Below, piece by piece: positions 46,890 through 54,260 of a DNA stretch of 64,000 bases. Source of the DNA: Acidithiobacillus ferrooxidans ATCC 23270 (GTDB lineage Bacteria > Pseudomonadota > Gammaproteobacteria > Acidithiobacillales > Acidithiobacillaceae); contig NC_011761.1 in NCBI RefSeq assembly GCF_000021485.1, positions 2,896,501 to 2,960,500 on the forward strand, written 5' to 3'. The stretch's first letter is position 1, and the number at the start of each line of letters is the position of its first letter. Both the position numbers and the translations under genes were made by a program. The notes under the pieces were generated by a model, which saw only the letters and a list, made by a program, of their open reading frames with translations, did no database searches and had not been told where the DNA came from.

Positions 46890-48316
46890 GGTGTATTCTC
46901 TCCCAAAGGCATGCCGACGGCCTGACTGAGCTGTGCCAGGGCAACATAACTGTTAACCAGATTCTGAATCAGGGTGTAGCGCGCCTGCGCCAGGGTGGAT
47001 TCGGCGAGGAGGACATCCTGAATGGTAGCCTGGCCGACGCGATACTGGGCCTGTACCACCTCCAGCGCCTTCCTGGCATTTTCCAGACCGCTCTGTGCGC
47101 CGGGGTAGGCCGCAACCGCGCCCTGGAAGTTGTGAAAATCCTGCCAGACCGTCGCTTCGGTGCTGCTGCGACTGGCCGCGAGGTTGGATTGGGCCTGATC
47201 CCTCAAGGCCTGCGTCTGGCGAATCTGATAATGGGTGTTGAAGCCGGTGAAGAGGGGTACGGTCAGGGTAAAACCCACGGTCCAGGTATCGCCGGGCAGA
47301 TAGCCGTTCTGAAAGGCGTAGCCGTAGGAACTGCTAACCCCCAGACTGGGCAGCCCGCTGGCCTCGGCGCTGCGGACATTGGCCTGGGCTACGGCGACTT
47401 GGGCCCGCGCCTGCTGCAAAGCGGGATTGGCGGCAAGGGCTGCTTGCATCAACGTCTCAGCGGCGCTGTGGAGTTGAGGCGGTTTCTGCCCCAGTTTGAG
47501 GGACGCTATCCTCAGCGAGGTCTGGGGACCCAGGTTCAGGGTGCTGGCCAGCAACCCTTCGCTGCTGCGCACGGTCTGGCGTTGCGCGGCGAGGGTGGAC
47601 TGCGCCTGCGCCATGGCGGCCCGGGCCTGATAGAGGGCGCCGATGGTGGCTTGCCCGGCACGATGCAGGACTTCGGCGGCCTCCAGGTTTTTCCGGTTTT
47701 CCGCAACGGTCTTTTCATCGGCCAGCAACAGGGATTGATTGCCGAGGAGCTGGTAATAGGCCTGCGCGACGCTGAAGGCCACGGCCTGGATGCTCTGGTT
47801 CTGGGTGAAGCCCGCCACCCATTCCTGGGCGCGGGCAGCATCCACCTTGGCGGCGCGCAGGCCAAAGTCCCACAGGGTGTAACTCAGGGTCAGATTGGGG
47901 TTGGCGCTGTTGCGTGCCGGCACCGTGAAGCCGATGGTGGAAACCGCCTGCCGACGACTGAAACCGGTATTGAGGGTGAGGCTGGGCAGCCAGGCGCTTT
48001 CCGCTATTCCCAGGCCGGCGGCCTGGGCGCGCAAACCATCCCAGGCGGCGGCGGTCTGCGGGTTGTGGGCGAGGGCATATGCGGTGAGTTGCGGCAGCGT
48101 CCAGACCTGGCCCTGCTCTGCCGCAGGGAGGGTTTGGGGCTTGGGGACTCCGGGGAGTCTGCGAGGCGCTGTCCACGCTTGGGCGGGGCTGGCGCTCATA
48201 CCGCTTTCGGTGTCCAGAGGGTCCGCCAGCCACGCTCCGACGCTGGCTTGCGCCAGCGCGCCTTGAGCCACACAGAAGACGGTACAGACAGCCAGCGAAA
48301 ACACTTTGGGGGGCAC
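46886..48316 (-). CDS. TolC-family outer-membrane efflux channel
   Basis: Protein of 476 residues with a signal peptide (VFSLAVCTVFCVAQGALAQ). Two OEP repeats of Gln- and Ala-rich helices follow: the first around TLPQLTAYALAHNPQTAAAWDGLRAQAAG, the second around ALAANPALQQARAQVAVAQANVRSAEASGLPSLGVSSSY. These build the trimeric barrel and periplasmic tunnel. The start is a GTG at 48316, fitting the signal peptide. The ATGA overlap with the adaptor gene shows that channel, adaptor and pump formed one operon before IS110 entered. Confidence 0.92.
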   Translation of the reverse strand: MPPKVFSLAVCTVFCVAQGALAQASVGAWLADPLDTESGMSASPAQAWTAPRRLPGVPKPQTLPAAEQGQVWTLPQLTAYALAHNPQTAAAWDGLRAQAAGLGIAESAWLPSLTLNTGFSRRQAVSTIGFTVPARNSANPNLTLSYTLWDFGLRAAKVDAARAQEWVAGFTQNQSIQAVAFSVAQAYYQLLGNQSLLLADEKTVAENRKNLEAAEVLHRAGQATIGALYQARAAMAQAQSTLAAQRQTVRSSEGLLASTLNLGPQTSLRIASLKLGQKPPQLHSAAETLMQAALAANPALQQARAQVAVAQANVRSAEASGLPSLGVSSSYGYAFQNGYLPGDTWTVGFTLTVPLFTGFNTHYQIRQTQALRDQAQSNLAASRSSTEATVWQDFHNFQGAVAAYPGAQSGLENARKALEVVQAQYRVGQATIQDVLLAESTLAQARYTLIQNLVNSYVALAQLSQAVGMPLGENTP

Positions 48317-48965
48317 GGCTCAGGCTCCTCGGCAGTGGAGCCGCCATTCTCCCGGAAAGCGGGATCATAAGGAAGATATGGGCGCCAAGGAAATTGTTGC
48401 AAAATGTTACAGCGGGCATGCTGGTAGGACAAGATCGCCCTTGGCTATGGACGGTGTGAGAGCGGCCGCAGGGAGTGGGTGCCTGAAGCGCGGCGGCAAC
48501 CGTCTTTGGCCTCTTGCGACATGCCTTGTCTACAGGCGACGGGGTGCTGTAGTACCTTGCGGAGCGAACGGCAGTGCCAGACTGATTGCAGACATTCAAC
48601 AGCGGAAAGCCAATGACATCATCCGACCCTCTGCCGCCATTCGCCCTCTTGACGCGAACGACGGCATCACAGCGTTTTCTGAATACCTGCCCCCACCGTA
48701 TTCATCGACCATCAAGGCAACCCCGCCAGCCCCAACTCTTCCAAAAGCCGATTATGCCGCTTCTTATCCATCTCCGACTCTTTGAGTAACGGCGCGATCG
48801 CAGCCTGAGTGGCCTGGCAGTCATGCTCCGGCCCTTGCTCTGCTGTGCTCACCTATCGGGAGATGTTCGGGTTATAACCGTTTCTCCCATCTCCTGAATG
48901 GCTACCGAATGAGCTAGGCGGTCCTCTTCTTGGCCTTTGATGACTATACCGTGCCGCCCAAAGAA
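48317..48965. other. Intergenic accessory region without a confident gene
   Basis: About 650 bases separate the efflux operon from the YaiI gene. No RNA gene, repeat or recognisable protein was found by reading all frames, apart from one small minus-strand frame listed separately. On the minus strand just upstream of that frame, codons for a further short peptide (ending AIQEMGETVITRTSPDR) suggest decayed coding DNA. Confidence 0.4.
48712..48852 (-). CDS. Possible small protein of 46 residues
   Basis: A minus-strand frame from a GTG at 48852 encodes 46 residues ending KKRHNRLLEELGLAGLP, charged and probably helical. The composition looks protein-like (acidic N-terminal half, basic centre), but the ribosome site is weak and I recognise no family. 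It could be the tail of a decayed larger gene. Confidence 0.25.
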   Translation of the reverse strand: MSTAEQGPEHDCQATQAAIAPLLKESEMDKKRHNRLLEELGLAGLP

Positions 48966-49409
48966 TCATGCGCGGACCAGTAGCTGGTCCAGTGCATTCG
49001 CAAATGCCTGGCGGTCCGCTTGGCTCAGGGCAGCGGGGCCACCAGTGCGCACGCCGGAGTCCCGGAGTTGCTCCATCATGTCACGAATCCGCAGGCGCTC
49101 GTGAATGGTTTCGGGGGAATAACGCTCCCCGCGCGGGCTGAGGGCATGGCTGTTTTTTTCTAGCACGGCGGCGGCCAGCGGAATATCGGCGGTGATTACC
49201 AGATCACCCGCTACGATGTGCCGAACGATTTCCTCATCGGCCACATCAAAGCCCCTCGGCACGACCACAGTGCGGATATAGGCGGAGCGGTGTACGCGCA
49301 GAGCTTGATTGGCTACCAGGGTCAAGGGCAGTTTCAGACGATCGCTGGCGCGATACAAAATGTCTTTAATGACGTTGGGACAAGCGTCGGCATCAACCCA
49401 GATATGCAT
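48966..49409 (-). CDS. YaiI/YqxD family protein (DUF188)
   Basis: Protein of 147 residues. The start [18 protein letters not shown] and the later [28 protein letters not shown]-type block ([25 protein letters not shown]) define the family, which has a PIN-like fold with acidic residues resembling a nuclease centre. The cellular role is unknown. The C-terminus [26 protein letters not shown] is also typical. It is a single gene; its upstream region leads to the toxin-antitoxin pair on the other strand. Confidence 0.9.
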
Positions 49410-49576
49410 GTGACGGCTCTTAGGAATTTTTTGAGTGGGAACACCATGTCACAGATGTGACTTCCCGACAATGTGTGCCCCCACGGAGGGCATTCACCCG
49501 AGTCTCCCAAACGCCGACTAATTCAGTAATGTGGTGGCACAGATTCGATGCCGGATTGATCTTGGCATGGCACGAG

Positions 49577-49596
49577 ACCATAATGATCATTATGGT
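49577..49596. promoter_or_regulatory. Perfect 20-bp palindrome, likely operator of the Phd/PIN pair
   Basis: ACCATAATGATCATTATGGT is its own reverse complement. It lies 17 bases before the antitoxin ATG and overlaps the expected promoter area. Phd/YefM antitoxins bind such palindromes with their N-terminal domain to repress their own operon, so this is the natural autoregulatory site. Direct evidence is the symmetry; binding is inferred. Confidence 0.6.
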
Positions 49597-49612
49597 TAAT
49601 GAGGGTGATGCC

Positions 49613-49906
49613 ATGATTACGGAAACCAACGCGGTCAATTTTCGCCAGAACCTGGGAGAAATGCTCAACCAGGTGCAGTATCGCCACGACAGCGTGATGA
49701 TTAACAAAGATGGGAAACCCGTTGCCGTGCTCATCGATGCTCGTCTTTTCGAGCGCATTCGCCGGATGCAGGGTCGCTTTGATGCGCTGTGCCAAAGGAT
49801 CGAAGCGGGATTTTCGCAAGTACCCGAATCTACAGGGATAGCGGAGATCGAGGCGGCCGTCGCTCAAGAACGGCGGGAATCGTCCATTTCCGCTGAGGAT
49901 CACTAA
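49613..49906 (+). CDS. Phd/YefM-family antitoxin
   Basis: Protein of 97 residues. MITETNAVNFRQNLGEMLNQVQYRHDSVMINKDGKPVAVLI is the DNA-binding Phd/YefM fold; the C-terminal part (RIEAGFSQVPESTGIAEIEAAVAQERRE) is the toxin-contacting tail, expected to be disordered without its partner. The ATG has GAGGGTGATG in front and follows a 20-bp palindrome. It ends 6 bases before the PIN toxin gene. The pair is a type II toxin-antitoxin module; Phd-type antitoxins with PIN toxins are a known combination. Confidence 0.87.
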   Translation: MITETNAVNFRQNLGEMLNQVQYRHDSVMINKDGKPVAVLIDARLFERIRRMQGRFDALCQRIEAGFSQVPESTGIAEIEAAVAQERRESSISAEDH

Positions 49907-49912
49907 CCGTTC

Positions 49913-50344
49913 ATGGCGGCATTGCGGGTGGTACTGGACACCAACGTGCTGCTTTCCGGCATAGCATACCCGGCCAGCGTGCCGGGCAAGATCCTGACCG
50001 CGTGGCGACATGCTTCCATCGAGGTACTGCTATCAGACTATATCCTCGATGAACTGCGCCGGGTACTGCCCCGTCTGGCGCACCGCCATGGGCTGACGGT
50101 GGCCGAGATGAGCGATCTGGTAGATATTCTGGCCATCCAAGCAGAACTGATCGCCCCATGGCCTGGGTTGGACCCGCACTTGCGCGACGACAAGGATCAA
50201 CCGGTGCTGCACACTCTGCTGGCCGCTCTCAAGACGTCTGGTGCTGACTACCTCATCACGGGAGACAAAGACCTTCTGGCGTTGGCTGATCGATATCCTA
50301 TAATCACCCCAATGGAATTCTGGCGGACGCATGGGGGAGTGTAA
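49913..50344 (+). CDS. PIN-domain toxin (putative ribonuclease)
   Basis: Protein of 143 residues of the PIN toxin subgroup typified by MAALRVVLDTNVLLSGIAYP. The four acidic residues of the Mg2+ site are Asp in VVLDTNV, Glu in ILDELRRVL, Asp in LRDDKDQPVL and Asp in YLITGDKDLLAL. PIN toxins cut tRNA, rRNA or mRNA; the target here is unknown. It is translated directly after its antitoxin. All catalytic residues are present, so it appears functional. Confidence 0.9.
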   Translation: MAALRVVLDTNVLLSGIAYPASVPGKILTAWRHASIEVLLSDYILDELRRVLPRLAHRHGLTVAEMSDLVDILAIQAELIAPWPGLDPHLRDDKDQPVLHTLLAALKTSGADYLITGDKDLLALADRYPIITPMEFWRTHGGV

Positions 50345-50640
50345 CTCCGTGAATAGGCGGTTAGCGCTGCCCTGCCGCCGTTGAGCCCTGATGGTCGGCA
50401 GCAGACTGTAAGCGGACATTGGATTCGGCTAGAATGACCTAACTCGTGACCGGCATGAAATTGTGAAATTCACTGCTTTGTCTCATGTTTTATCGCGAGC
50501 GAAAACGTCAAAAAATCAATTTGATAGGGTTTTTATGGCAACAGAAACATGAGGCACACTGACGCATTGTGTCCTAACCCACAGGAAGGTCATCCAATAT
50601 TATGTGACATACCCCCTTGTTATGCTGCACCGACGTAGCA
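50345..50640. other. Spacer between the toxin-antitoxin pair and the GHKL-protease cassette
   Basis: About 300 bases, AT-richer in the second half (50455-50545). A GTTGAGC matching the GTTRRRY end of attC sites occurs at about 50380, but no paired left arm at a suitable distance was found, so the upstream border of the cassette is not fixed. No coding frame is credible. The promoter of the downstream gene is expected here but not clearly recognisable. Confidence 0.35.
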
Positions 50641-52176
50641 ATGAAGAAATTTGACCTGAACATCGACCGCATGCTTGAAAACTGGGATGCATTCCATGCC
50701 ATTCGGGAAATCATTGCCAACGCGCTCGACGAGCAGATATTGACTGGCACGCGGGAAATTGCCATCTCCCGCGACGGCGACGGTCAGTGGCGCATCAGAG
50801 ACTTCGGCCGTGGCCTCCGGCACGAGCACTTCACGATGAACGAGAATCAGGAAAAGCTTGACCATCCCGGCCTCATCGGAAAGTTCGGCGTGGGCTTGAA
50901 GGACGCTCTGGCCACATTCGACCGCTTGGGCATCGAGACTCGCATCCGCTCCAAGTTCTGCGATGTCGCCTTCGACCGCTCCGAGAAGCATGATTTCTCT
51001 GATGTCATCACACTGCACGCCTGCATCTCCGATCCGTCCGATCCTGCATTCGTCGGAACCGAATTCATCCTGAAAGGTTGTTCTATTGAGGACATCGAGA
51101 AGGCGAAGCGTCTGTTCTTGAGGTTCTCCGGCGAGGAACGCCTAGAAGAAACCCAATACGGACAAGTCCTGCGGAAAGCAGGCAAGGTCTCCTTCATTTA
51201 CATCAACGGCATTCGCGTCGCCGAAGAGGAAAACTTCCTGTTCTCCTACAACATCACTTCGCTGACGGCCGCCATCAAGAAGGCTCTCAATCGCGAAAGG
51301 ACCAATGTCGGGAGGGTCGCCTACTCTGACCGGGTGAAGTCCATCCTGCTCGCTTCCTCTTCGAAAGCAGTCGCCAAGGCTCTCGTCGATGACCTCGGCA
51401 ACTTCGGAGGCGGCACGCTGCATGATGAGATGAAATGGACGGATGTCTCGGTGCATGCGTCGAAGATCACCAACGCATTGGGAAATGTCCTGTTCCTAAC
51501 GGATGAGGAGATTATGAATGCTCCGCGTTTCGTCGAGGAGGCTCGGGCGAGCGGGCGGCAGATCATCACGATCCCGAGCACCGTCAAAGAGAAGCTGTCG
51601 GGACAGGTCGATATGGAAGGCAACACGATACAGGATTTGGGCAATTTCGTTTCCGAGAGGAACGATTGCTTCGAGTTCAAATTCGTCCCGCCCGAAAAGC
51701 TCGTGCAGGCCGAAAGATCGGTATTCAACATGACCGGAAGGCTTGCCGATCTCATCGGAGGGCTTCCTTCGAGGGTTCAATCGGTGAAGATTTCGGAGAC
51801 GATGCGCCCCGAGACCGGAAGCTTCTCGGAAGCCTGCGGGCTTTGGACTGGCATGGAAATCATCATCAAGCGTAGCGAGCTCGCTTCCGTCGAGAGCTAT
51901 GCCTCCACTTTGCTCCACGAGATCGCTCACGCCCGAAGCGGAGAAACCGACATCACTATCGGTTTCGAGCATGAGTTGACCTCGCTTCTTGGGATGGTCG
52001 CGTCTAAAGTGCTACGCAGAGCTTCCGCCGACACCCAATTGCTGCAAGAGCCGACAAAGGCTCGAACCCCTGAAATCCGGGCCGCATCGCGGCAGCCACA
52101 AGCAGCGAGCCGTGACCCCGCTCCCGCGAAGAAGGCTGGGTTCTGGGCTAGGTTGTTAGGCAATCCTTCAAGGTGA
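50641..52176 (+). CDS. GHKL ATPase domain fused to an HEIAH metallopeptidase-like domain
   Basis: Protein of 511 residues of unknown function. The N-terminal third has the Bergerat ATP-binding fold. The N-box is EIIANALDE (residues 23-31), the G1 motif is DFGRG (54-58), the G2-like loop is GKFGVGLK (80-87) and GTEF stands at 139-142; this resembles Hsp90/MutL/MORC-type ATPases rather than a kinase. A middle region without known signature follows. Near the C-terminus LLHEIAHARSG (425-434) is an HExxH zinc site, with a possible third ligand in the FEHEL segment (442-446). A Pro- and Ala-rich linker leads to a basic aromatic tail (KKAGFWARLLG). The gene is directly followed by an attC-like site, so it is probably an integron cassette. 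ATP-controlled proteolysis, possibly in defence, is a hypothesis. Confidence 0.78.
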   Translation: MKKFDLNIDRMLENWDAFHAIREIIANALDEQILTGTREIAISRDGDGQWRIRDFGRGLRHEHFTMNENQEKLDHPGLIGKFGVGLKDALATFDRLGIETRIRSKFCDVAFDRSEKHDFSDVITLHACISDPSDPAFVGTEFILKGCSIEDIEKAKRLFLRFSGEERLEETQYGQVLRKAGKVSFIYINGIRVAEEENFLFSYNITSLTAAIKKALNRERTNVGRVAYSDRVKSILLASSSKAVAKALVDDLGNFGGGTLHDEMKWTDVSVHASKITNALGNVLFLTDEEIMNAPRFVEEARASGRQIITIPSTVKEKLSGQVDMEGNTIQDLGNFVSERNDCFEFKFVPPEKLVQAERSVFNMTGRLADLIGGLPSRVQSVKISETMRPETGSFSEACGLWTGMEIIIKRSELASVESYASTLLHEIAHARSGETDITIGFEHELTSLLGMVASKVLRRASADTQLLQEPTKARTPEIRAASRQPQAASRDPAPAKKAGFWARLLGNPSR

Positions 52177-52185
52177 CGTAATGAT

Positions 52186-52253
52186 GCCAAACCCATCATT
52201 CCACCGGGCCTGCGCAAAAAAGCCGCGTAGGCCCGTGAATTCAGGCGTTAGTC
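52186..52253 (+). repeat. attC-like integron recombination site 1
   Basis: Ten bases after the stop of the GHKL gene. Outer boxes are GCCAAAC (52186) and GTTAGTC (52247), each one base off the RYYYAAC/GTTRRRY consensus but with the essential AAC/GTT kept. The arms pair through CGGGCCT and AGGCCCG, and the right side reads TTCAGGCGTTAG as in classical cassette attC sites. Length is 68 bases. Position right behind a gene stop is what a cassette requires. Confidence 0.62.
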
Positions 52254-52397
52254 ACTTACGTTGATTAACAAATCATCGTGAATACCAAATAGTCATTGAA
52301 ATAAACGGCACAATAAAAATCTGCACGACTATGGATTAGACATTGACACGGCCGTTAAACCGTCTAATCACTGAGTTGGAGGTGATGAAAGCTAAGA

Positions 52398-52691
52398 TTG
52401 GCCATACTAGCTGAAGATTGGGATACAGACGATCTTTTTGACAAATGGATTTCGCCAAAACAATCGGAGAATGATATAGTGAAATATATAACAGAAGCAC
52501 AACTAACTGAACATATCAATCAACAGTTGAGCAAATATAAATGCTCTATATCTAAAATTAGCAAAATAACCTGCATCGACAACAAAGGTAAAAACTGGAC
52601 AGCCTCATTAACTTGTAGTGATGAACAAATAAAAGATGAATCGTTTGAAATTGTAAATAAATTTAAAGAAAGTTATTCAGCTGTATGGTAG
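52398..52691 (+). CDS. Hypothetical small AT-rich protein
   Basis: Protein of 97 residues, acidic at the start (EDWDTDDLFDKWISP) and Lys-rich later, without signal peptide or membrane helix. I recognise no family. The start is uncertain: a TTG at 52398 is used here, with GGAGG somewhat far upstream; an ATG next to that GGAGG is in another frame and stops after nine codons, so a frameshift near the start is possible. Base composition is much more AT-rich than the rest of the window, indicating transfer. Its end overlaps the next gene by 7 bases. Confidence 0.5.
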   Translation: MAILAEDWDTDDLFDKWISPKQSENDIVKYITEAQLTEHINQQLSKYKCSISKISKITCIDNKGKNWTASLTCSDEQIKDESFEIVNKFKESYSAVW

Positions 52692-53125
52692 CTTTTCGTT
52701 ATTTAGTGATCGTTATAACCGCTCTAGCTCTTGCAGGGTGCGGAGGTTCTAGATCTTCTGGTAATAACTATATTAATGCTAACACAAATGCGCGTAACAC
52801 CTCTCATATCATTACAAACATTCAAGCCAAAAATTTATTAAGATCAGCCCTGCATGGTAATAATATTAGCCTTCATAAACTTAAGGTATATGCTCACGAT
52901 CGAAATAAATATGCTGAAATGTGGCTAGGTCAATACTATTTCCTTAGAAGGGATTATGATGAAACATACTACTGGTACAGAAAATCAGCCAGACAAGGTG
53001 ATTCATATGCGTATTTAGGTTTATTTGATCTTTATTCACACGGTCAAGGAGTTACTCAAAACATGGGGAAGGCCGAACAGTGGCTTAAAAGAGGCATGTT
53101 AGCTAGTGAACACTCCACCGGCTAA
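52685..53125 (+). CDS. Sel1-repeat lipoprotein
   Basis: Protein of 146 residues with a lipoprotein signal (VIVITALALAGCGG, lipidation at Cys19). The second half has tetratricopeptide-like Sel1 repeats: KYAEMWLGQYYFLRRDYDETYYWYRKSARQGDSYAYLGLFDLY and GVTQNMGKAEQWLKRGM (read in two pieces). Sel1 proteins are adaptors for protein contacts. Like its neighbour the gene is strongly AT-rich. The pair lies between two attC-like sites, so it may be a cassette cargo. Function unknown. Confidence 0.75.
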   Translation: MVAFRYLVIVITALALAGCGGSRSSGNNYINANTNARNTSHIITNIQAKNLLRSALHGNNISLHKLKVYAHDRNKYAEMWLGQYYFLRRDYDETYYWYRKSARQGDSYAYLGLFDLYSHGQGVTQNMGKAEQWLKRGMLASEHSTG

Positions 53126-53457
53126 AGCCGGATCGGTCGGCACTACGGACGACTAGCGTACAATTTTTTCCGAATTCTGAAGGGACCATGATAATCCGTT
53201 CTCACAACCGACCGTTTTTGAGAGTCTTCGGCTGGTGATGGTTACCTCCTCATAGTTAATCAATGTGTTGCAATTCTCGAAAATCATGCTCAAAAATCGG
53301 TTACGTTTTCCCGCCATGATGACGAATTTTGAGAGCTTGCTGGCCAAGTCCCCGAACGTCCGCTCCCGCCCGGTCCTGGGCTTGGGCGCCGATAGCCCGA
53401 ATTCGCCAAGAGAGATGAAAAGATATTTCTAGGGGGAATCGTTCAAAAACCGGGCTC
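53126..53457. other. Noncoding or decayed stretch within the cassette region
   Basis: About 330 bases between the Sel1 gene and attC-like site 2. It begins with a short hairpin (CCGGCT and AGCCGG around AA) overlapping the gene end. A 64-codon minus-strand frame at 53153-53347 has no ribosome site or recognisable domain and is not called as a gene. The rest shows no repeat or RNA. Confidence 0.4.
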
Positions 53458-53520
53458 GTCCAACAACCGGCTCAGATCGTGGCTCGCTTCGCGATCACGA
53501 TCTAACCTTAATCGTTAGGC
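53458..53520 (+). repeat. attC-like integron recombination site 2
   Basis: A 63-base imperfect palindrome. Outer boxes GTCCAAC (53458) and GTTAGGC (53514) fully match RYYYAAC and GTTRRRY. Inside, AGATCGTG pairs with CACGATCT and then TCGC with GCGA around a TTC loop. The CGCTTCGCG core and the right end closely resemble the classical aadA-type attC in the plus orientation. This is the stronger of the two sites. No integron integrase gene is in the window. Confidence 0.75.
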
Positions 53521-53528
53521 ACCGCAGG

Positions 53529-53747
53529 TCAGAATTCTACGGCGTACGTAATTGCGTCACTTTTCTTGAAAACCTCAAGCGCGAATGGTGTTGACCATGT
53601 GTATAGGTCGTGGATTGAGTAGTCCTTGCCTGGAGTTGCGCCAGCTTCAATTAGCGAATGCTCCATGTTCTTGGCCATGATAAGAAGAAGATCTTCTAGG
53701 GTGCTGGGATCTGCTTTGTCGACTTGGCGAAGAAGTTGTGTAGTCAT
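53529..53747 (-). CDS. Hypothetical protein of 72 residues
   Basis: Begins MTTQLLRQVDKADPSTLEDL with AAGGAGC at the right distance before the ATG; an in-frame upstream extension has no ribosome site. The protein is soluble, acidic and probably helical at first, then ends with mixed aromatic residues (YTWSTPFALEVFKKSDAI). No family recognised. It ends 9 bases from attC-like site 2, on the opposite strand to the cassette genes; it may be a cassette in reverse orientation or the next cassette. Confidence 0.55.
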   Translation of the reverse strand: MTTQLLRQVDKADPSTLEDLLLIMAKNMEHSLIEAGATPGKDYSIHDLYTWSTPFALEVFKKSDAITYAVEF

Positions 53748-54260
53748 AAGTGCTCCTTGATGGCTAACGTGAATACAACTGCAGCTGGTTAGCAGCATAA
53801 CACCCGACGTTACTCTATAACATTTCTGGATCTCCTCGGCTACAACCATCCTACTTTTTTCGTTCTACACCAATCCACCCAAATTTGAACGTCCGCTTCA
53901 GCTGCATACCTGCCACTGGAGATAAAGAGCATACCGGGGGGCGGAGAACCTGCGAGACGTCAGGATCAGACTTTTTGCTTAGGAAAGTCGTTTATAATTT
54001 TTTTGACATAATGATCCATGGTGAAACCTTTTTGTTACTCGACAGGTGGCTCTGTTCATTTTGCATTGGGAGTACCGCGCAATCCCATATAGGGTTGCTA
54101 TTCCTCAGGAGTGGACCGCCATGCGCGTCCATAGCGACAAGCAATCATCCACCATTCACAATTCTTGACACTTTGCCGCTGGCATCCGCCGCGGCGGCGC
54201 GCTAACTTGTCTGGCACGGAAAGGGTGCACCTTTCCCCCTGAGTGATGAGGAGCAGAGTA
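53748..54260. other. Intergenic region before the Spy-like gene
   Basis: About 500 bases. Near 53765 a six-base inverted repeat GCTAAC/GTTAGC with a 19-base centre precedes the small hypothetical gene; it is too short for a full attC. A perfect TTGACA occurs at 54165-54170 but no -10 stands at the right distance. A GGAAAGG/CCTTTCC hairpin is listed separately. No credible gene. Confidence 0.4.
54218..54236 (+). promoter_or_regulatory. Hairpin in the leader of the Spy-like gene
   Basis: GGAAAGG and CCTTTCC pair around a five-base GTGCA loop, 24 bases before the ATG and shortly before the ribosome site. In RNA it could affect translation or end a small upstream transcript (no T-run follows); in DNA it could be an operator for the response regulator encoded downstream. 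Only the symmetry is directly seen. Confidence 0.3.

Follow-up and report, generated by a model that had tools for sequence, protein, structure and literature searches.

What kind of protein combines, in a single chain, the motifs of a GHKL ATPase with that of a metallopeptidase, and what would such a protein be used for? This question is raised by a 511-aa CDS (50641..52176, + strand), the only copy of its gene in the genome, in the stretch of 64,000 nucleotides of Acidithiobacillus ferrooxidans ATCC 23270 analyzed here (hereafter the window). A preliminary description of this DNA had singled out GHKL motifs and a HEIAH motif in this one ORF, and all of them are present where it placed them, i.e. 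EIIANALDE with the N-box residues E23/N27 (50707-50721), DFGRG (D54-G58) with the G1 residues D54/G56/G58 (50800-50814), GKFGVGLK (G80-K87) with the G2 box G80-G85 (50878-50895), and HEIAH at residues 426-430 (51916..51930), all on the + strand. The profile searches of the two halves that it envisaged had different outcomes: the GHKL half gives sub-threshold Pfam matches (HATPase_c, E=0.004; HATPase_c_3, E=0.018), one homologue giving a stronger one (1e-6), and the protease half gives no Pfam match. The SprT-like profile PF10263 does not match the window protein (P0001), and PADLOC 2.0.0 profiles matched it in 0 families. Outside Pfam, residues 2-250 match PHROG 6077, a phage protein family of unknown function (E=1.6e-20), a RIIA PHROG matches weakly and within the GHKL part only (E 0.02-0.05), and the NCBIfam sacsin N-terminal domain matches with an E of 1.6e-4. 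An Rfam search gave no match, and the scores of a promoter scan were no better than those of shuffles.

Structure prediction divides the protein into three parts. A full-length AlphaFold2 model built from 40 alignment rows (pLDDT 83) comprises a GHKL (Bergerat) ATPase domain (residues 1-162, 50641..51126), a middle region (residues 163-328, 51127..51624) that on its predicted secondary structure consists of an S5-like part with a conserved NRER (217-220) and an alpha/beta part, and a zincin domain (residues 329-470, 51625..52050), with a low-confidence and predicted disordered tail from 469 to 511. The N-terminal domain aligns with the Hsp90 N-domain (VIA-align Z 10.9, rmsd 3.8, 139 aligned residues), Foldseek matches of the ATPase half also include GyrB, ParE, and MutL, and phage RIIA folds are among the best viral matches of the N-terminal part. 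Profile comparison with HtpG gives a probability of 90.7%, the N-domain alone being aligned, and there is a weak profile match between residues 241-339 and the middle segment of Hsp90 (E 0.0085). The invariant NRE (217-219) resembles the SRE loop of Hsp90. With its N-box E/N, G1 DxGxG, G2 GxxGxG, and predicted Bergerat fold, the N-terminal half belongs to the GHKL superfamily. Membership of the Hsp90 family itself is ruled out, since PF00183, which covers the Hsp90 middle and C-terminal domains, does not match the protein at E<=1.

Foldseek with the whole model returned GHKL proteins only, and the zincin was therefore folded separately. Residues 329-470 alone give a compact zincin with a pLDDT of 91.9, and the VIA-align ranking is led by the Wss1 proteins of the budding and fission yeasts (Z 9.4-8.2, just above a background of middling Z), with a YbeY-type protein (7.8), SPRTN (7.3), and abylysin (7.0) next. 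The Foldseek E-values are weak, the best being 0.004 for abylysin, and when the domain profile was compared with PDB sequences two Wss1 chains ranked first without reaching significance (E 0.11-0.12). Comparison with the SprT profile gives a probability of 11%, and weak Pfam matches at E<=1 are scattered among the homologues described below, SprT-like in 17 of 42 members (best 7.8e-4) and WLM in five of 42 (best E 0.015). The invariant HExxH, the downstream D437/E443, and the predicted fold assign the domain to the zincin superfamily (clan MA). Prediction thus shows an ATPase fold of the Hsp90/MutL/GyrB kind and, beyond the middle region, a zincin fold, in agreement with the previously proposed order of ATPase and metallopeptidase. 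A predicted structure lacking a zinc site at HEIAH was to count against that proposal; the fold predicted there is a zincin. The middle region, a ligand candidate at Asp437, and a second cassette farther downstream had not been part of that proposal.

HEIAH supplies two putative zinc-ligand His (H426 and H430) and a catalytic Glu (E427), and the candidates for the third ligand are Asp437 (51949..51951, + strand) and Glu443 (51967..51969, + strand). In GtgA, the motif 182-HExxH-186 is joined in the site by Asp193 (PMC6166728). D437 lies seven residues past H430, the same spacing as Asp193, and an Asp is kept at this position in all four distant homologues that were read (L056, L057, L074, and L132). 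The position of E443, invariant in the core family, is occupied by Thr in the homologue of Exiguobacterium phage vB_EalM-132 (L132), in which the Asp stays. Together these three observations favor an Asp site, and the predicted zinc site is most likely His426-His430-Asp437 (HExxHx6D); the gluzincin site with a downstream Glu, as initially proposed, is distinctly less likely. The spacing is all that is shared with GtgA/NleC-type zincins, which are secreted effectors without an ATPase (PMC6166728). The predicted model shares its compact zincin fold with Wss1 (Z 9.4) and SPRTN (Z 7.3), but in those two proteins the third ligand is a His and a GHKL domain is absent. The Wss1-type third His (HExxHx5H) is absent from the fusion protein, position 436 being variable and not His, which rules out membership of the WLM/Wss1 family.

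Is the fusion a property of this genome or of a family? Using tblastn and pattern scans, we found 48 homologue loci in genome contigs and seven nearly full-length homologues on plasmids (40-50% identity); viral contigs yielded six homologues with an alignment query and none with a single-sequence query. Among the groups represented are Pseudomonadota, Bacillota, Bacteroidota, Chloroflexota, Actinomycetota, Verrucomicrobiota, and Campylobacterota as well as haloarchaea, Nitrosopumilus, Thor-/Lokiarchaeota, Bathyarchaeota, and Aenigmatarchaeota. The core alignment comprises 40-42 full-length members from Bacteria, Archaea, and viral contigs; their identity to the window protein is 43-92%, and the mean column identity (42 members) is 50%. 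Across 42 full-length homologues, E23, N27, D30, D54, G56, G58, G80, G83, and G85 are invariant in the GHKL half, and H426, E427, H430, D437, F442, and E443 in the protease half. HExxH, the loss of which in homologues was to count against the original proposal, is kept in every full-length member; a seeming exception (L034) is a frameshift, with HELIH in another frame. A degenerate HExxH is therefore rejected, and a chance juxtaposition or frameshift fusion is ruled out by the presence of the fusion in 40-odd genomes. Since the motif residues of both halves are jointly invariant in 40-42 homologues, neither half is a relic, and the conservation of both active sites together argues that both are used.

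Distant relatives show that the parts can be arranged differently. Two proteins of large plasmids carry repeated modules ahead of a C-terminal HExxH domain: one of 1104 aa from Alkaliphilus (L056:5875-9189) has three GHKL-middle modules (PHROG 6077), and one of 958 aa from Aneurinibacillus (L074:3353-6229) has repeated GHKL modules, their ends reading HEEVH/HEQVH...D..FE. In phages, a 446-aa protein of Moorella phage MTATph1 ends with HETLH...D..FE and a 437-aa protein of Exiguobacterium phage vB_EalM-132 with HETIH...D..FT. Many other phages, e.g. Pseudomonas Ab18, have the ATPase module without a zincin. Side by side, members with and without the zincin suggest that it is one of several ends of a RIIA-related module of phages and cells. 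A Citrobacter braakii plasmid (L055:8007-8354) has the zincin end alone near transposases, as a 115-aa ORF with HELIH...D..FE that is probably a truncated copy.

The fusion ORF was said earlier to be a cassette with its own attC-like site, and comparison with a Comamonas contig confirms this. Nucleotide homology with that contig (92%) is confined to 50634-52250, and its right end (...GGCGTTAG / ...GACGTTAA) coincides with an attC cut point, G^TTRRRY. Judged by its layout, an ORF followed by attC with G^TTRRRY boundaries, the fusion ORF is an integron gene cassette (50620..52247, + strand) that opens with TTATGC... and closes with ...GGCG, a G^TT cut point lying at each end (the left one less certain). 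Its attC (52186..52253, + strand; GCCAAAC ... hairpin ... GTTAGTC) was found by a scan and aligned with the Comamonas attC. The scan, which gave 0 matches in 10 shuffled windows, also detected a second attC downstream (53458..53520, + strand; GTCCAAC ... GTTAGGC). The two attC sites and the boundary of the Comamonas homology indicate that the window holds two cassettes, at 50620-52247 and 52248-53514. The second (+ strand) contains ORFs at 52398-52691 (97 aa, of unknown family) and 52685-53125 (Sel1-repeat lipoprotein-like); it is A+T-rich, with GC down to 34%. Directly behind its attC, a 106-aa antisense ORF without a Pfam family (53529-53849, - strand) is possibly a third, reversed cassette. 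In Comamonas, at least three cassettes with classic attC sites follow one another, and the fusion gene occupies the final one. The cassette that precedes it there encodes a protein that looks DUF4062-like.

No IntI was found near the two cassettes of the window, which sets this locus apart from a complete integron. A broken IntI-like frame lies 2.5 Mb away in contig coordinates (L059, G000:C1:432525-432878, - strand); this remnant of 140 aa, with part missing, scores 108.9 bits to integrase_gron, and the genome therefore probably once had an integron. The cassettes are part of a larger island (48360..54153), since the flanks (47592-48358 and 54154 onwards) are direct neighbors in six divergent congeners. 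The left part of the island contains a DUF188/YaiI-like gene and a Phd-YefM/PIN toxin-antitoxin pair, which form one unit (48674-50424) found in several congeners at about 98% identity; in four of these congeners homology stops at 50420-50424, just ahead of the cassette region. Taken together, the fusion, its two conserved active sites, and the cassette are established at the level of the sequence.

The gene is rare. Only one further genome among the 17 from the genus carries a homologue; its identity is just 44%, and its sequence is divided between two contigs. Among 200 Pseudomonadota genomes two are positive, the window genome included. A tree of 40 members, many of them metagenome bins, mixes phyla and both domains, requiring 19 changes for 16 groups (minimum, 15). 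In addition, relatives are found on plasmids and, as distant versions, in lytic phages. On these comparisons, the gene is widely transferred and patchy, and its mobility is established.

A survey of neighborhoods for defense islands, as the preliminary description had envisaged, gave a mixed picture: some homologues lie in defense loci, but most stand alone, with gaps of at least 100 bp on both sides, and all-against-all clustering of 766 neighbor ORFs found no partner gene in more than four loci. In Salinibacter pSR56 (L053:9962-15204), a type I restriction-modification (RM) operon has the GHKL-zincin gene placed between hsdS and hsdR and also holds a separate SprT-family metalloprotease gene behind hsdR. 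An Epsilonproteobacterium homologue is preceded by a RAMP gene and followed by a type III methylase, one from a Bacteroidota bin lies ahead of PDC-S06, and SbcCD is found near the Croceicoccus homologue. RM neighbors occur at two loci only (L053 and L013). Two Aenigmatarchaeota (L017:7181-10001 and L018:7151-9978) have genes for an SbcD-like phosphoesterase and an LmuB-like SMC ATPase directly upstream, which is possibly a three-gene Lamassu-like system. PADLOC tallies were 309 families for near neighbors and 173 for far ones, near proteins being longer and defense genes occurring in both sets. Considering that genes four to seven positions away also include defense genes (SIR2-HerA, methylases), local enrichment is suggested at most.

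The claim that no characterized protein has this order of domains is in keeping with the open-access literature, which contains no description of a GHKL-zincin fusion (subscription papers and preprints were outside the scope of the search). The closest known design is VcSduA, a GHKL-Shedu protein of V. cholerae with tested anti-phage activity (PMC12137116). Like the fusion protein, it is mobile and stand-alone and consists of a GHKL ATPase, a clamp-like middle, and a C-terminal effector enzyme, which is a PD-(D/E)xK nuclease (DUF4263) in VcSduA and a zincin here. Membership of Shedu is ruled out, as DUF4263 has no Pfam match in the 511-aa protein and the C-terminal domain is a zincin. MORC and paraMORC proteins (PMC2292703), including paraMORC-HEPN (PMC3710099), likewise join GHKL to an S5-type module and are patchy and laterally mobile. 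They are often found in RM loci, whereas most GHKL-zincin homologues are outside such loci, and their C-terminal effectors vary (nuclease, TIR, HEPN), a metallopeptidase being unmentioned in PMC2292703. RIIA-like GHKL proteins of phages (PHROG 6077) share the GHKL-middle module, but most have no zincin, those of MTATph1 and EalM-132 having one. Hsp90/HtpG and sacsin share the N-domain fold, Hsp90 has its C-terminal domain where the fusion protein has the zincin, and sacsin, with three Hsp90-like modules and HEPN, is paralleled by the tandem triple modules of distant plasmid relatives. By analogy with VcSduA and the paraMORC-effector fusions, the GHKL-zincin protein may work in the same manner but through an effector of a new kind.

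In GHKL proteins that have a clamp-like middle domain (Hsp90, MutL, and type II topoisomerases, for instance), ATP drives dimerization, and the dimer closes around DNA or protein. The same argument was made for VcSduA (PMC12137116). As happens in Hsp90, MutL, and GyrB, the N-terminal domain of the fusion protein would bind ATP and dimerize, and the middle region would thereby be closed on a substrate. The substrate would probably belong to an incoming or competing genome and be either a protein-DNA complex or a protein. Closure would bring or release the C-terminal zincin (His426/His430/Asp437 and catalytic Glu427), which would cleave the protein held in the clamp before ATP hydrolysis resets the system. 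As a self-contained cassette spread by integrons, plasmids, and phages, it would most likely serve conflict between genomes, being anti-phage or anti-plasmid in cells and the reverse in phages. What we infer for the protein is ATP binding and hydrolysis, a dimer clamp, zinc binding, proteolysis, a nucleoprotein target, and a conflict role. An ATP-gated clamp protease that serves genome conflict has, in our estimate, a probability of about 45%; an ATP-gated clamp protease with its role left open is reasonably probable. A new class of prokaryotic immune or counter-immune enzyme, in which the ATP-gated clamp would shut around the nucleoprotein of an invader and degrade the proteins bound there, lytic phages carrying the same device, is tentative and on balance doubtful.

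That the zincin resembles Wss1/SPRTN and that some neighbors are SbcCD-like suggest proteins on DNA as targets. An alternative reading is the repair of DNA-protein crosslinks. The clamp would then load on DNA as do MutL and topoisomerase ATPases, the zincin would digest trapped proteins, and plasmids and phages would use it to clear their own DNA, e.g. of relaxases or topoisomerases, not for attack. In addition to the top zincin folds (Wss1 and SPRTN) and the weak SprT-like and WLM matches in 17/42 and 5/42 members, this reading fits the Mre11/Rad50-like genes (SbcD, SbcC-like), which immediately precede the fusion gene in two Aenigmatarchaeota and lie in its vicinity at another two loci, and the DNA-metabolism genes around the distant phage versions. 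However, the third His of Wss1 is missing, SprT profile comparison reaches just 11% probability, and a very patchy distribution with placement in defense loci is atypical of repair. Mobility, rarity, and defense-locus placement point to conflict rather than upkeep; for the distant versions in lytic phages, counter-defense or DNA upkeep fits equally. We consider crosslink repair rather unlikely.

In a protease switch, the GHKL part would be the trigger, and the activated zincin would cleave a single cellular protein or a partner and thereby bring on dormancy or death (abortive infection). Such a switch would be in line with the aspzincin-type HExxHx6D spacing, as found in single-target proteases, and with a stand-alone mobile gene that adjoins a toxin-antitoxin pair in the window. 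That pair is nevertheless a separate unit, present alone in congeners, and the homologues have no conserved partner gene for a toxin, an immunity protein, or a substrate; we regard a switch as improbable. To a chaperone-protease akin to Hsp90 or sacsin, whose Hsp90-like part would hold misfolded clients for degradation by the zincin, we give slightly less credence again. The Hsp90 N-domain fold (Z 10.9), the weak middle-segment match, the sacsin N-terminal match (E 1.6e-4), and the plasmid relative with three clamp modules in one chain, as in sacsin, speak for it, but the Hsp90 C-terminal dimer domain is absent, the host encodes its own HtpG, and the gene is mobile, rare, and found in defense loci.

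The family is well delimited by its invariant residues, its size of 511 aa, and its occurrence as a single gene in a cassette. A conserved protease effector would extend the GHKL-clamp chassis, the known ends of which are nuclease, TIR, and HEPN, to proteolysis. On the predicted model, a Wss1/SPRTN-like zincin would give prokaryotes and phages an ATP-gated counterpart of the eukaryotic proteases that act on DNA-bound proteins. If the immune or counter-immune clamp protease proves true, the Hsp90/MORC clamp would be a shared chassis for nuclease, TIR, HEPN, or protease effectors.
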